A program made the translations under genes and the position numbers. Below the pieces are notes generated by a model, which ran no database searches, was not told where the DNA came from, and saw nothing but the letters and a program-made list of their open reading frames with translations. A stretch of 64,000 nt of DNA from Ornithinimicrobium tianjinense (GTDB lineage Bacteria; Actinomycetota; Actinomycetes; Actinomycetales; Dermatophilaceae). How positions within the stretch are numbered: the stretch's first letter is position 1; the number at the start of each line of letters is the position of its first letter. Shown here one piece after another: positions 27,860 through 35,864 of the stretch. The stretch covers positions 816,136-880,135 of the forward strand of contig NZ_BMEM01000001.1 in NCBI RefSeq assembly GCF_014636495.1, read 5' to 3'.

Positions 27860-29440
27860 ATGGCTGACGACGACGACCTCCTCGTGCTGGAGATCCCGCC
27901 CGAGGTGCTGCGTCGTCACGACGCCCGTCTCCTCGACCCGCAGACCGCGGCCCGCCCCGCCTCCACCGACCCGGGTGGGGCGCCCGCGGCACCCGGCCCC
28001 ACGGCATACCGCAGCAGCAGCCTGCTCGTGCGCGGCCTGCCCGGCCGCGGCGCGGCCGGCACCATCGACCGTCTCAGGTCCGCTGCGGAGCGGGCCGGGT
28101 ATGCCGTGCAGCTCGTCGTGGACGAGGCCGACCTGGCCCTCGAGCAGCGGCTCGGCGAGGCTGCCGCGGAGATCGACGCGCTCTACCAGACGCGGGTGAG
28201 CATCGTCGGTGCCGGTCGGCCCGTCGACGCCTGGGAGCTGCTGGTCGCGGCGCGCGCCGACGGGCCTGTCGACGCCGACCTCGAGCACCTGATGCTCGCT
28301 GCGGGCTACTACTCCACCGGCGGGCCGGGCCACTGGGAGGGCAACGGCGGGCCAGGGCACTGGGAGGGCAACGGCGGTCCGGGCCACTGGGAGGGCAACG
28401 GCGGCGGTGACACCCTGATGCGCACCAGCGTGAGCCTGGGCATCGCCTCGTTGACGACCACGGCCGCGCCCCCGGAGCGTGCGCCCGTCGTCGTCATCCC
28501 CGACACCGGGATCGGCGACCACCCGTGGTTCCGCGACGGGCTGTGCCACGTGCTCACCGAGCTCGACGGCATCCCCGTCGGGCCGGCGGGAGGTCTGGAC
28601 CCCGACCCCGAGGACCGGGGGGTGCGCAACGACCTCACCGGCGCCCTGGACCGGCTGTCCGGCCACGGCACGTTCATCGCCGGCGTGGTGCGGCAGGCCG
28701 CACCGGACGCGCGGCTCGTCGGTCTCCCGACGGTCGACTCCTCCGGCGCTGCCGCCGAGGGCGACGTGCACCGCACGCTCGTGGCGCTCTACCTCATGCA
28801 CGTCCGGGCGCAGGACGCCGGACGGACCGAGTTCGACGCGGACGACCTCACGGGCGGTTTCGCCGTCGACGTGCTCAACCTCTCGATCGGCTTCTACCAC
28901 CAGGACGGCACGCTCGCGGCGGGTCACCCGATGGAGGCCCTGCTCCGCGCCTTCGGCGACCGAGGGGTGCTCGTGGTCGCGGCCGCCGGCAACGACGCGA
29001 CCCGCGTGCCGCTCTACCCCGCCGGCTGGGCGGCGCACGCCGGCCCGCCTCCTGCGGACCGCTCGACCGTCCCGCTCGTCGGGGTCGGCGCGCTCAACCC
29101 CGACGGCCGCACCGTCGCCATGTTCAGCAACGCCGGCCCCTGGGTCACGACGCACGCGCCCGGTGTCAACGTCGTGAGCACGCTGCCGGTGAGCTTCCAG
29201 GGCTCGGCCAACCCGTCTCGCTCGACGCCGGGTGCCGGGGCGTTGCGCTCCACCGGCGACAGCGACGACCACAGCCAGGGCTTCGCCGCCTGGGGCGGCT
29301 CGAGCTTCGCCGCCCCCCGCGTCGCCGGCCTGGTCGCCGACCACCTGGCGACGGTCGCCCGAGAGCAGGGCCCGTCGGTCGACCCCGCGGAGATGACCGC
29401 CCGCGCCTGGTCCGGGCTGGAGCCGGTGGTGTGGCCATGA
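27860..29440 (+). CDS. Cytoplasmic subtilisin-like serine peptidase (S8)
   Basis: A 526-residue subtilase. The catalytic triad is visible: Asp215 (VVIPDTGIGDHPW), His269 (LSGHGTFIAGVV) and Ser482 (GGSSFAAPRVAG). NLSIGF and AAAGNDA mark the oxyanion-hole side. No signal peptide or membrane helix is present, so it acts inside the cell. The first 150 residues are a separate alpha/beta region unlike a classic inhibitor propeptide. A linker of three identical GGPGHWEGN units (residues about 154-180) joins it to the protease domain. GAAAGG precedes the ATG. Its stop overlaps the sigma factor start (ATGA). The pairing with a sigma factor and a CHAT protease suggests regulated proteolysis (inference). 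Confidence 0.92.
   Translation: MADDDDLLVLEIPPEVLRRHDARLLDPQTAARPASTDPGGAPAAPGPTAYRSSSLLVRGLPGRGAAGTIDRLRSAAERAGYAVQLVVDEADLALEQRLGEAAAEIDALYQTRVSIVGAGRPVDAWELLVAARADGPVDADLEHLMLAAGYYSTGGPGHWEGNGGPGHWEGNGGPGHWEGNGGGDTLMRTSVSLGIASLTTTAAPPERAPVVVIPDTGIGDHPWFRDGLCHVLTELDGIPVGPAGGLDPDPEDRGVRNDLTGALDRLSGHGTFIAGVVRQAAPDARLVGLPTVDSSGAAAEGDVHRTLVALYLMHVRAQDAGRTEFDADDLTGGFAVDVLNLSIGFYHQDGTLAAGHPMEALLRAFGDRGVLVVAAAGNDATRVPLYPAGWAAHAGPPPADRSTVPLVGVGALNPDGRTVAMFSNAGPWVTTHAPGVNVVSTLPVSFQGSANPSRSTPGAGALRSTGDSDDHSQGFAAWGGSSFAAPRVAGLVADHLATVAREQGPSVDPAEMTARAWSGLEPVVWP
28319..28399 (+). repeat. Three 27-base tandem repeats in the peptidase gene
   Basis: Units 28319-28345, 28346-28372 and 28373-28399 each encode GGPGHWEGN and differ only at two silent positions. 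Such in-frame repeats can vary in copy number between strains. Confidence 0.93.
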
Positions 29441-33205: not shown

Positions 33206-33245
33206 ACCGCGCCGGTCGGCTCGGTCCCGACCCAGGAGGACACGC

Positions 33246-33554
33246 ATGAGCACCCAGGACGAGAACGCTGGTTTCGACGACTCCGAGCTGACCCCGGACA
33301 CCGTGGGAGACGCCTTCGCCGAGATGCCCGAGAGTGCTGCCGGCGCACCGCTCGACGGGGGCGCGGGGCACGACGGTGGCGCCGATGGCGGTGCTGACGG
33401 TGGCGCCGACGGTGGCGCCGACGGTGGCGCTGACGGTGGTGCAGATGGCGGTGCCGACGGTGGCGCGGATGGCGGGGCCGACGGTGGCGCTGACGGTGGT
33501 GCCGACGGTGGTGCAGATGGCGGTGCCGACGGCGGCGCCGAGCGCCTCGGGTGA
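33246..33554 (+). CDS. DGGA-repeat peptide, possible modified-peptide precursor
   Basis: A 102-residue protein in two parts. Residues 1-41 are a non-repetitive acidic segment (MSTQDENAGFDDSELTPDTV and on to AFAEMPESA). Residues 43-98 are 14 perfect DGGA units, and it ends ERLG. AGGA lies six bases before the ATG. Codons within the repeat vary at silent positions (GAC/GAT, GGT/GGC/GGG, all four Ala codons) while the protein unit never changes, so the peptide itself appears selected. It overlaps the oxygenase gene by four bases (GTGA). Leader-plus-repeated-core layout beside a JmjC-like enzyme suggests a modified peptide (inference); a simple low-complexity protein is the alternative. Confidence 0.75.
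   Translation: MSTQDENAGFDDSELTPDTVGDAFAEMPESAAGAPLDGGAGHDGGADGGADGGADGGADGGADGGADGGADGGADGGADGGADGGADGGADGGADGGAERLG
33372..33539 (+). repeat. Fourteen 12-base tandem repeats
   Basis: Fourteen in-frame units of the type GACGGTGGCGCC encode DGGA. Units are not identical in DNA; a larger pattern (GACGGTGGTGCAGATGGCGG) occurs twice, which shows expansion by blocks of two to three units. Confidence 0.95.
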
Positions 33555-34816
33555 CCGAGCACCCACCCGCCGGTGCGAGGGTGGCGCCCGCGGGCGCCAC
33601 CCTGGGCCGGCTGCTCGGGCGGACCGACCCGGACACCTTCGCGACGGCATACTGGGGCCGCCAGCTCCACCTCGCGACAGTGGAGGACCGGGGCGGCGAC
33701 GACTTCTCCGACCTGTTCGGGCTCGACGCGGTCGACGAGCTCGTCTCGGAGCGCGGGCTGCGCACCCCGTTCCTGCGCGTCGCGCGTGACGGGTCGACCC
33801 TGCCCGAGCGCGCCTACACCGCGGGCGGAGGCATCGGTGCCGGGGTCGCCGACCAGGTCAGCGACGACAAGCTCCTCCAGCTCTTCGCCGACGGCGCGAC
33901 GATCGTGCTGCAGGGGCTGCACCGCACCTGGGGGCCGGTCCGCGGGCTCGCGGCGGCGCTCGCGGCCGACCTCGGCCACCCGGTGCAGGTCAACGCCTAT
34001 GTCACGCCACCGCAGAACCAGGGCTTCGCCGACCACTACGACGTCCACGACGTCTTCGTCCTGCAGGTCCACGGGGAGAAGCGGTGGGCGCTGCGCGAGC
34101 CGGTCCACCGAGACCCGCTGCGCGACCAGCCCTGGACGGACCGCAGGGCGGCGGTCGAGGACCAGGCCCGTCGGGAGCCGGCGCTCGAGACCACCCTGCG
34201 CCCGGGCGACTGCCTCTACCTGCCGCGCGGCTGGGTCCACTCCGCCCGGGCCCTCGGAGGCGTGACGGTCCACCTGACCTTCGGCGTGCACCAGTGGACC
34301 CGGCACCACCTCGCCGAGGCGCTGCTGGACCGCGTCCGACCCCTGCTCGCCGAGCGCGACGACCTGCGCTCCTCCCTGGGGCTCGGGCTCGACCTCGCCG
34401 ACGCGGCGAGCGTCGAGGACGAGGTGGAGCGGGTGCGCGGTGAGCTGCTGGAGACGCTGGCTGCCGTCCCCACGGACGAGGTCGTGCGGGTCCTGCGGGG
34501 GCGGGCCAGGGCGGGTCAGCGTCCCGCGCCGGTCCGGCCGCTCGCCCAGCTCGCCGCGGCCGAGACCCTGCGTCCGAGCTCGCGGCTGCGCGTGCGCGAG
34601 CACCTCATGACGGACCTGATCGAGTCCTCCGGCCGGGAGGTCGTCGTCTCCTCGCGCGCCGGCCGCTTCTCGGTGCCGGCCGCGCAGGGCGACACCCTCC
34701 GCCACCTCCTGGAGGTCGGGGAGTCTACCGTCGTCGCGCTCGCCGAGGAGGCCGCGGACGCCCTCGACCTCGCACGGCTCCTCGTCCGGCAGGGGCTGGT
34801 CGTCGTGGAGCCGTGA
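33551..34816 (+). CDS. JmjC/cupin-4 family Fe(II)/2-oxoglutarate oxygenase
   Basis: A 421-residue protein of the ROXA/YcfD-like cupin family. The metal triad is His162-x-Asp164 (HYDVHDVFVLQ) and His230 (LPRGWVHSA). VNAYVTPPQNQGF and VHGEKRWALREP are family motifs before and after the first strand. C-terminal of the barrel are a helical dimerisation part and a winged-helix-like end. Known relatives hydroxylate ribosomal protein L16 or L27 side chains. Here the gene is coupled (GTGA) to the DGGA peptide gene, so that peptide is the obvious substrate candidate; Asp beta-hydroxylation is a guess. Confidence 0.88.
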   Translation: MTEHPPAGARVAPAGATLGRLLGRTDPDTFATAYWGRQLHLATVEDRGGDDFSDLFGLDAVDELVSERGLRTPFLRVARDGSTLPERAYTAGGGIGAGVADQVSDDKLLQLFADGATIVLQGLHRTWGPVRGLAAALAADLGHPVQVNAYVTPPQNQGFADHYDVHDVFVLQVHGEKRWALREPVHRDPLRDQPWTDRRAAVEDQARREPALETTLRPGDCLYLPRGWVHSARALGGVTVHLTFGVHQWTRHHLAEALLDRVRPLLAERDDLRSSLGLGLDLADAASVEDEVERVRGELLETLAAVPTDEVVRVLRGRARAGQRPAPVRPLAQLAAAETLRPSSRLRVREHLMTDLIESSGREVVVSSRAGRFSVPAAQGDTLRHLLEVGESTVVALAEEAADALDLARLLVRQGLVVVEP

Positions 34817-34874: not shown

Positions 34875-35864
34875 GTGTCGGAGACCCTGAGCGCCGTGCC
34901 CTGCAGCGACGCCGCCCGCGAGCGGCAGGACCCGATGCTGGGGACCGCCCCGCCGCAGGCCCGGTTCCTCCTCGTCGAGGTCGAGGGCGGGTGGCGCTTC
35001 GGCGGGTTTGCCGACCTCGTCCTCCAGCAGGACGTCAAGGACGAGGTGGTCGCGCGGGCGGAGGCGGTCGGGGCCCGGGTGATGCTGATCCGTCGCCCCG
35101 GGCGGCAGACCTCCTCGGTCTGCTACCTGCGGGCGTGGTGCGCCGTCGACCTGACCGCGACCCCCGGGAGCAGGGTCACCTGGGGCACCTGGGCCTACCC
35201 CTCCGAGCTGCTCAGCGGCATCGAGCGCCTCGAGGAGCTCGCGAGCGGTGCCGGGACCGCCGACCCCCTGGCCGAGGCGGCCAGCCGTGACGCGGCGGAC
35301 CTGGAGGAGCCCGCTCGGACAAGTGACGACGTGCTGATCCTCGTGTGCACCCACGGCAAGAAGGACCCGTGCTGCGCCGTGCGCGGGCGCCCCGTGGCGC
35401 AGGCGCTCGCGCGACGCTGGCCGGAGCAGACGTGGGAGTGTTCGCACACGGGAGGTGACCGCTTCGCCGCCAACGTGCTGCTCCTCCCGGACGGGGCGAC
35501 CTACGGCGGTCTCGACCCCGACACCGCGCTCGAGGCCGTGGAGGGGCACCTCCAGGGGGCACCGGCCACGGCGCACCTGCGCGGGCTGGCCGGCCAGCCG
35601 CGCCCGGTCCAGGCCGCGATGGTGGCGGCCCACGACGAGCTCGGCCCCCTGGCCTGGGGAGACCTCACCCCGGTCGTGATCTCGCCGCGCGAGCCGGAGG
35701 GCTCCGACGTCGCGGCGTGGACGGTCACCCTGGCGGTCGCGGACGGGCGTCGGGCCGAGGTCGACGTCACCGAGCACCGGCGCCCGGCCGCCCAGCTGAC
35801 CTGCCGCACCGCCGACGCGAAAGTCTCGCAGGTGCCGGTCGCGGGTCCGGTCCGGCTCGTCTGA
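34875..35864 (+). CDS. Sucrase/ferredoxin-like family protein
   Basis: A 329-residue protein with the thioredoxin-like [2Fe-2S] ferredoxin fold of the Suc_Fer-like family. The cluster-type motif CTHGKKDPCCAVRGRPVAQA has Cys158, Cys166 and Cys167, and WECSHTGGDRFAAN supplies a further Cys and the family's conserved HTGGDRFA. An N-terminal CSDAARERQDPMLGTAP segment is also typical. It could bind an Fe-S cluster and act in electron transfer. It begins 58 bases after the oxygenase gene, with GAGGAT seven bases before the GTG that could be its own -10 box. It may supply electrons to the neighbouring system (inference). Confidence 0.85.
   Translation: MSETLSAVPCSDAARERQDPMLGTAPPQARFLLVEVEGGWRFGGFADLVLQQDVKDEVVARAEAVGARVMLIRRPGRQTSSVCYLRAWCAVDLTATPGSRVTWGTWAYPSELLSGIERLEELASGAGTADPLAEAASRDAADLEEPARTSDDVLILVCTHGKKDPCCAVRGRPVAQALARRWPEQTWECSHTGGDRFAANVLLLPDGATYGGLDPDTALEAVEGHLQGAPATAHLRGLAGQPRPVQAAMVAAHDELGPLAWGDLTPVVISPREPEGSDVAAWTVTLAVADGRRAEVDVTEHRRPAAQLTCRTADAKVSQVPVAGPVRLV

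Follow-up and report, generated by a model that had tools for sequence, protein, structure and literature searches.

Asp-rich peptides are paired with JmjC oxygenases across Actinomycetota in a probable multi-site peptide-modification cassette

Introduction

In the window, the 64,000-nucleotide stretch of Ornithinimicrobium tianjinense DNA analysed here, a gene for a short peptide with an array of DGGA repeats overlaps the gene for a JmjC-type oxygenase. The locus raises the question of whether the peptide is the substrate of the oxygenase, and which of its residues is then modified. The original prediction likened the combination of leader, repeated core, and adjacent tailoring enzyme to the layout of multi-core modified peptides and proposed hydroxylation of the repeated Asp. 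We assign a probability of roughly 0.6 to the reading as a whole, according to which the locus represents a phylum-wide actinobacterial peptide-modification cassette with a RiPP-like precursor modified at multiple Asp residues. The first gene would encode a short acidic peptide in which a leader-like N-terminus precedes a low-complexity region that is dense in Asp and in most cases repetitive. The second gene, the start of which overlaps or lies near the end of the first, would provide a JmjC oxygenase with the ribosomal-oxygenase fold of NO66, MINA53, and YcfD. Many sites of the peptide would be hydroxylated by the oxygenase, the likeliest being the beta-carbon of the recurring Asp. Where a third gene is present, its Suc_Fer-like protein may be a source of electrons or iron, or may itself act on the modified peptide.

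Results

The peptide gene and its DGGA array

The peptide has 102 residues, and its non-repetitive N-terminal part is followed by 14 exact DGGA units, as originally described (Table 1). An extra single DGGA is located outside the array, at 33354-33365. The array was found independently by Tandem Repeats Finder, with a period of 12, 14.2 copies, and a score of 188. The 14 units comprise nine distinct 12-mers that differ solely at third codon positions. A minimum spanning tree of the units contains nine substitutions, and all nine are third-position changes, which bears out the silent-site variation reported before; the chance of this outcome is approximately 5e-5, assuming that one third of random changes hit third positions. 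The four-base overlap with the oxygenase gene was also found again, and reads GTGA because the oxygenase reading frame starts with GTG at 33551. The window peptide has no match in Pfam. Three weak NCBIfam matches of the peptides to the adhesins SdrC, SdrD, and ClfB (E 0.09 to 0.19) were judged to be low-complexity noise, and kinship with these proteins was rejected.

Table 1. Features of the peptide-oxygenase locus in the window
Feature	Position	Strand	Basis and remarks
Shine-Dalgarno AGGAGGA of the peptide gene	33234..33240	+	Sequence; 5 bp 5' of the ATG
Asp/Gly/Ala repeat peptide, 102 aa, proposed multi-site precursor/substrate	33246..33554	+	Open reading frame and equivalents in relatives
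Leader-like non-repetitive N-terminal part, residues 1-36	33246..33353	+	Similar N-terminus in L005, L006, L007
Contiguous DGGA units, x14	33372..33539	+	Repeat analysis
Predicted JmjC_2 Fe(II)/2-oxoglutarate oxygenase, 421 aa	33551..34816	+	Pfam, alignments, model; start overlaps peptide stop by 4 bp
HxD of the iron-binding triad, His162 and Asp164	34034..34042	+	Invariant in alignments
Distal triad residue His230	34238..34240	+	Invariant in alignments
Suc_Fer-like protein (PF06999), conserved downstream partner	34875..35864	+	Pfam E 6.5e-18; co-occurrence

The JmjC oxygenase resembles ribosomal oxygenases

The oxygenase matches the JmjC_2 family of Pfam (PF08007, E 1.7e-27) with 95.9 bits against a gathering score of 22, and two distant members also exceed this score, with 97.5 and 94.6 bits. 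It is the only JmjC_2 match in the host genome. The HxD...H triad is intact, as previously noted: none of H162, D164, and H230 varies in either of two ortholog alignments, which contain 20 and 46 sequences, and the HxD motif is present in all 52 fetched phylum loci outside the nine peptide-less ones described below. Among plasmid records, 135 match the query, none over more than 80% of it, and the identity is 30 to 36% among the 30 matches listed.

The AlphaFold model of the oxygenase, built on 46 sequences, has a mean pLDDT of 92.7; a model made without an alignment reached a pLDDT of 36.8 and was unusable. The closest PDB structure is NO66, with a TM score of 0.70 and a Foldseek E of 1.1e-25. 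The top solved-structure matches are NO66, MINA53, and YcfD, and the sequence profile agrees for NO66 and MINA53. In the C-terminal region of the model, three strands are followed by helices 377-389, 394-397, and 401-413. Judged by the order of these elements alone, the modelled region is compatible with an RRE-like domain; the whole-length matches to ribosomal oxygenases suggest that it is the usual C-terminal region of those enzymes.

Asp-rich peptides accompany JmjC genes in the genus, the family, and named genomes

The JmjC gene was detected in 18 of 31 genomes of the genus, with no match in the other 13, and in 122 of 186 genomes of the family (E up to 1e-20). Loci were fetched from 17 genus and 40 further family genomes, and the DNA 5' of the JmjC gene was read. 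In most of them, the JmjC start lies no more than a few tens of bases from the end of a D/G/A-rich peptide. A degenerate DNA pattern for DGGADGGA occurs in all 18 JmjC-positive genomes of the genus versus 1 of the other 13. Among the 186 family genomes, 109 contain both JmjC and the pattern, 13 JmjC only, 2 the pattern only, and 62 neither (Fisher p 1e-33 for genome sets entered by hand from the match tables and uncorrected for relatedness). A pattern search of viral contigs gave 13 matches, with no relative among them. Seven of the 13 JmjC-only genomes, those other than G035, G039, G046, G088, G101, and G151, were read for other types of peptide. Asp repeats of another kind are present in G038 and G165, acidic peptides with no evident repeat in G036 and G037, and no such peptide in G031 and G083; the bases 5' of the gene are masked in G132.

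The 80 named loci, the best 80 of at least 588 relatives, come from Ornithinimicrobium, Serinicoccus, Terrabacter, Streptomyces, Arthrobacter, Nocardioides, Blastococcus, Geodermatophilus, Modestobacter, and others. A filter for Asp-rich peptides is passed by 74 of these 80. Among the loci that fail it, two have a peptide recognisable by eye (L100, L143), three are contig starts (L092, L098, L128), and L118 has no peptide.

The pairing extends across the phylum

To cover Actinomycetota, 396 genomes were drawn evenly, and JmjC was found in 58 of them, with 62 matches in total (E up to 1e-20). All 61 matches besides that of the window were fetched as loci; 48 pass the filter, and L186 does so at a slightly relaxed hydrophobic limit. 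Including the window, 50 of the 62 matches have a peptide and 59 are readable, with L181, L201, and L228 situated at contig ends. The original prediction was to be given up if the oxygenase never stood next to a repeat peptide in relatives, which is not the case: among the 51 best-scoring phylum matches, an Asp-rich peptide immediately precedes the JmjC gene in 49, and the other two are at contig ends. The 11 weakest matches comprise one with a peptide (L222), one contig end (L228), and nine without a peptide (L219, L220, L221, L223-L227, L229).

These nine loci also lack a Suc_Fer neighbour. The four of the nine proteins that were checked still belong to PF08007. In a quick tree with long branches, the peptide label requires four changes, and several of the peptide-less proteins are located on long branches. 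The peptide-less L227 is placed beside the peptide-linked L216, so the nine do not form one clade, and we claim clustering rather than a clean clade. From their low scores and long branches, we read the nine as probable paralogues.

The recurrence was also counted in a wider set of 158 loci from partly redundant genomes (17 genus, 40 family, 80 named, 20 phylum, and the window). An Asp-rich, hydrophobic-poor reading frame ends near the start of 141 of the 158 JmjC genes, as opposed to 5 of the 1,385 other genes of the same loci. The predicted layout of leader, repeated core, and adjacent oxygenase is thus a recurring one. Seven of the 17 misses are at contig ends (L021, L029, L059, L092, L098, L128, L181), four have a peptide recognisable by eye (L022, L100, L143, L186), L031 has an interrupted-looking array, and L085 contains masked bases. 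The remaining JmjC orthologs, L067, L088, L074, and L118, have no peptide; L074 and L118 apparently represent a single locus. The pairing of Asp-rich peptides with JmjC oxygenases across Actinomycetota is real. Because the pair recurs in this way, the Asp-rich protein is likely to be a multi-site substrate.

A separate observation concerns L074 and L118, in which a different reading frame, spanning the region of the JmjC start, contains a DVDHRDVDHRDVDNRD run. In L022, which is the L005 locus, two peptides precede one JmjC gene, one with a DPTGDGGADGGA repeat and the other acidic and repeat-less.

Repeat units are diverse and the leader is variable

The Asp-rich peptides are mostly repetitive, and their units vary, for example DGGADGGA, GPADGGAAGTPGVHDGGADGGA, and DGDATDGTDGDA. 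Units in the genus and family include pure DGGA arrays, DGHAGPGGDGGADGGA, DPTGDGGADGGA, and DSGADGGSDSG, and the Streptomyces form consists of EGPADGGAAGTPGVHDGGADGGA and its variants repeated two to five times. Phylum peptides outside the class of the window are often denser in Asp, as in DGDATDGTDGDA or DADAADADASDADA. The last 60 residues show significant periodicity relative to shuffled sequences in 39 of 49 phylum peptides and in 128 of 141 from the wider set. The other 10 and 13, respectively, are Asp-rich with no regular unit; acidic peptides with no evident repeat include L191 and L083. L184 contains a divergent array of ADGTDQGV...GTYGPRDA units, carried by a 366-codon stop-to-stop frame.

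Comparison of neighbouring in-phase units in 129 loci gave 1993 synonymous and 695 nonsynonymous codon differences, while a single-base change made at random in a DGGA unit would be synonymous in 27.8% of cases; the requirement that units start with D and finish in a small residue biases these two positions towards synonymy. As judged from sequence, the comparison shows codon-level constraint on the repeat.

Comparison with relatives had been proposed as a check on the repeat length and on the conservation of the N-terminal part. The length and unit of the repeat do vary, with Asp retained, and the N-terminal part is common to a few genus relatives only: the window peptide shares DS.L..D.[VL]..AF..M with L005, L006, and L007. 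An L[ST]DEDIET-type motif is located near the start of 41 of 49 phylum peptides, as counted with a regular expression written after reading the sequences, and its simple form in 35 of 141 peptides of the wider set; it is not evident in the window peptide. No leader common to all peptides was found among the 141. Recognition through the Asp-rich region may count as much as the leader.

Asp is the probable target residue

Among the C-terminal 40-residue stretches of 171 peptides, all 171 contain Asp, a count partly built in because the filter requires at least 12% Asp, and Gly and Ala are present in 170 each. Histidine occurs in 96 and arginine in 43 of these stretches, so neither can be a universal target, and both were rejected in this role. 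Within DGGA-type arrays, however, Ala is more constant than Asp, being kept in 452 of 461 flanked units versus 402 for Asp, which is replaced mostly by Glu (47 of 59). Asp is probably the modified residue. The reaction is probably, with somewhat less assurance, beta-hydroxylation, by analogy with characterised relatives: NO66 and MINA53 hydroxylate C-3 of His, YcfD hydroxylates C-3 of Arg, and FIH also accepts Asp, according to the portion of a 2015 review available to us (PMC4543633).

The peptide could be the substrate of a different chemistry, for example desaturation, formation of aminomalonate, alpha-hydroxylation with backbone cleavage, or oxidation of Ala or Gly. RiPP oxygenases of other classes provide precedents, with Asp beta-hydroxylation leading to aminomalonic acid and with oxidative backbone cleavage (excerpts of PMC13097080 and PMC12636437), and in DGGA arrays the constancy of Ala and Gly is similar to that of Asp. 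We consider these chemistries unlikely, since the characterised relatives closest in fold, with NO66 as the best match, hydroxylate at C-3 (PMC4543633, in part), and Gly and Ala are each missing from one of the 171 stretches versus none for Asp, which is itself in the filter.

The peptide is very likely the substrate

Alternatively, the peptide may remain unmodified and serve the oxygenase as an acidic disordered partner, such as an iron donor, inhibitor, or tether, while the enzyme acts elsewhere, for example on a ribosomal protein. The ribosomal-oxygenase fold and the status of the enzyme as the sole JmjC_2 protein of its genome would suit such a role, and acidic repeats alone could bind iron. 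A housekeeping ribosome modifier is not expected to be unmatched in 13 of 31 genomes of a genus; this patchy occurrence (18 of 31) argues against a ribosomal Arg or His target and disfavours housekeeping ribosome modification. Furthermore, the wide variation in length and unit among the Asp-rich regions is compatible with a multi-site substrate, and an unmodified peptide is improbable. The recurrent pairing points instead to the peptide being, very likely, the substrate of the JmjC oxygenase.

Any role of the modified peptide, for example metal binding, is tentative. It is conceivable, but doubtful, that the system makes a ribosomal poly-beta-hydroxyaspartate, in which the oxygenase would hydroxylate short-spaced Asp residues and the partner would be an iron-sulfur protein, the product being a metal-binding or metal-buffering biopolymer widespread in actinobacteria. 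Equally speculatively, many spacings of such a polymer would have evolved, with D at every 2, 3, or 4 residues and longer.

A Suc_Fer-like gene belongs to the unit

The gene following the oxygenase, which was not part of the earlier description, encodes a Suc_Fer-like protein and belongs to the unit. Clustering of neighbours identified it in 89 of the 158 loci, always on the same strand (89 of 89), and its start is at most 1,500 nt from the JmjC alignment start in 88 of the 89. It follows JmjC in 43 of the 52 fetched phylum loci that are not among the nine peptide-less ones. In the genus, it is present in all 18 JmjC-positive genomes versus 2 of the 13 JmjC-negative ones; in G009 it is a contig-end fragment, and in G027 it is approximately 1.3 kb away. 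Of the 89 proteins, 87 or 88 retain each of the residues Cys10, Cys158, Cys166, Cys167, His191, and Cys310, which are possible metal ligands, as judged from their conservation. The Suc_Fer family is known for [2Fe-2S] clusters. Two genus genomes, G001 and G014, have a Suc_Fer-like gene and no JmjC match; these genes are possibly remnants of a lost cassette.

The next commonest neighbour clusters occur in at most 23 of the 158 loci, and Suc_Fer is the sole other cluster above that. Gene calling in the neighbourhoods relied on a home-made GC3 rule, which recovered JmjC in 149 of the 158 loci. Among the unannotated clusters in the 3-7 kb flanks of the 158 loci, neither a protease nor an exporter was found to adjoin the cassette in the majority of cases. 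A dedicated protease or exporter nearby is not required of all RiPPs.

The peptide might belong to the subtilase-sigma-CHAT module located directly 5' of it in the window, rather than to the oxygenase, but within fetched flanks of 6-7 kb upstream, or less at contig ends, these genes were seen in just 3 or 4 of the 17 genus loci and in none of the 40 others from the family, whereas Suc_Fer is present at 16 of 17 and 18 of 40, so that the module genes were rejected as partners and their ownership of the peptide is hardly credible. That the repeat is a chance product of high-GC DNA, in which tandem repeats are common (the window has 25 tandem-repeat rows), is just as remote in view of the exclusively third-position substitutions of the array, the Shine-Dalgarno sequence at the start, and a phylum-wide association that involves different DNA and peptide units and is nearly absent from other genes (5 of 1,385).

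The upstream module is headed by the subtilase at 27860-29440, which contains three copies of GGPGHWEGN at 28318-28404, and further includes a sigma factor, a carboxypeptidase-regulatory-like protein, and a CHAT-TPR protein.

Relation to known systems

The window enzyme shares the JmjC_2 domain (PF08007), the HxD...H triad, and the overall fold with the ribosomal oxygenases YcfD, MINA53, and NO66. The targets of these relatives are Arg or His residues in ribosomal proteins, as stated in the accessible part of the review (PMC4543633), whereas the window enzyme adjoins an Asp-rich peptide of a family in which Arg and His are often missing from the last 40 residues. The biphenomycin cluster similarly places a JmjC-domain enzyme, BipG, in a RiPP context, where it is named an Fe(II)/2OG ornithine hydroxylase; the cluster differs in its radical SAM, MNIO, and transporter genes, and an Asp repeat is not described in the available sections of the report (PMC12707348). 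Corallotide, a graspetide with repeated KxxxD, also has a large repeat precursor, five repeats of which are modified by a 2-oxoglutarate oxygenase. In that system, however, a graspetide synthetase is needed, Lys is hydroxylated, the oxygenase belongs to PF13640, and the distribution is restricted to Corallococcus, as far as the accessible text goes (PMC13097080). Asp beta-hydroxylation in a ribosomal peptide is established for RiPPs made by MNIO enzymes, such as the nitrilobacillins, in which one Asp is modified by this other enzyme class (PMC13060819, excerpt).

RRE-like domains fused to PF08007 JmjC have been reported in fish- and alga-derived proteins (mSystems 2025, PMC12710340) and have this domain in common with the window enzyme. 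Their closest bacterial homologues are approximately 30% identical and lie in RiPP-like contexts, and the portion of that paper at hand does not describe an Asp-repeat peptide (PMC12710340). Because of this paper and BipG, both available in part, a RiPP-like precursor with a 2OG oxygenase is already known as a kind. Within that kind, the Asp-rich peptide family with its Suc_Fer partner appears to be new. In the openly licensed literature, we recognised no paper describing this peptide family. Xia et al. 2025 reportedly deals with 2OG macrocyclisation in RiPPs, which may overlap with the Asp-rich peptide system.

If the cassette reading is true, a phylum that is intensively mined for natural products contains a class of modified peptides that is large and apparently undescribed; the class has perhaps been overlooked because its precursors are of low complexity and contain few Cys or aromatic residues. 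The cassette would also supply a substrate hypothesis for a bacterial JmjC clade known by its domain only, and a simple repeat substrate for studies of multi-site hydroxylation.

Finally, L219 and L225, which encode divergent JmjC_2 proteins and come from the same class, have a different short reading frame ending in SDGND just 5' of the JmjC gene, perhaps a second pairing of JmjC with a peptide.
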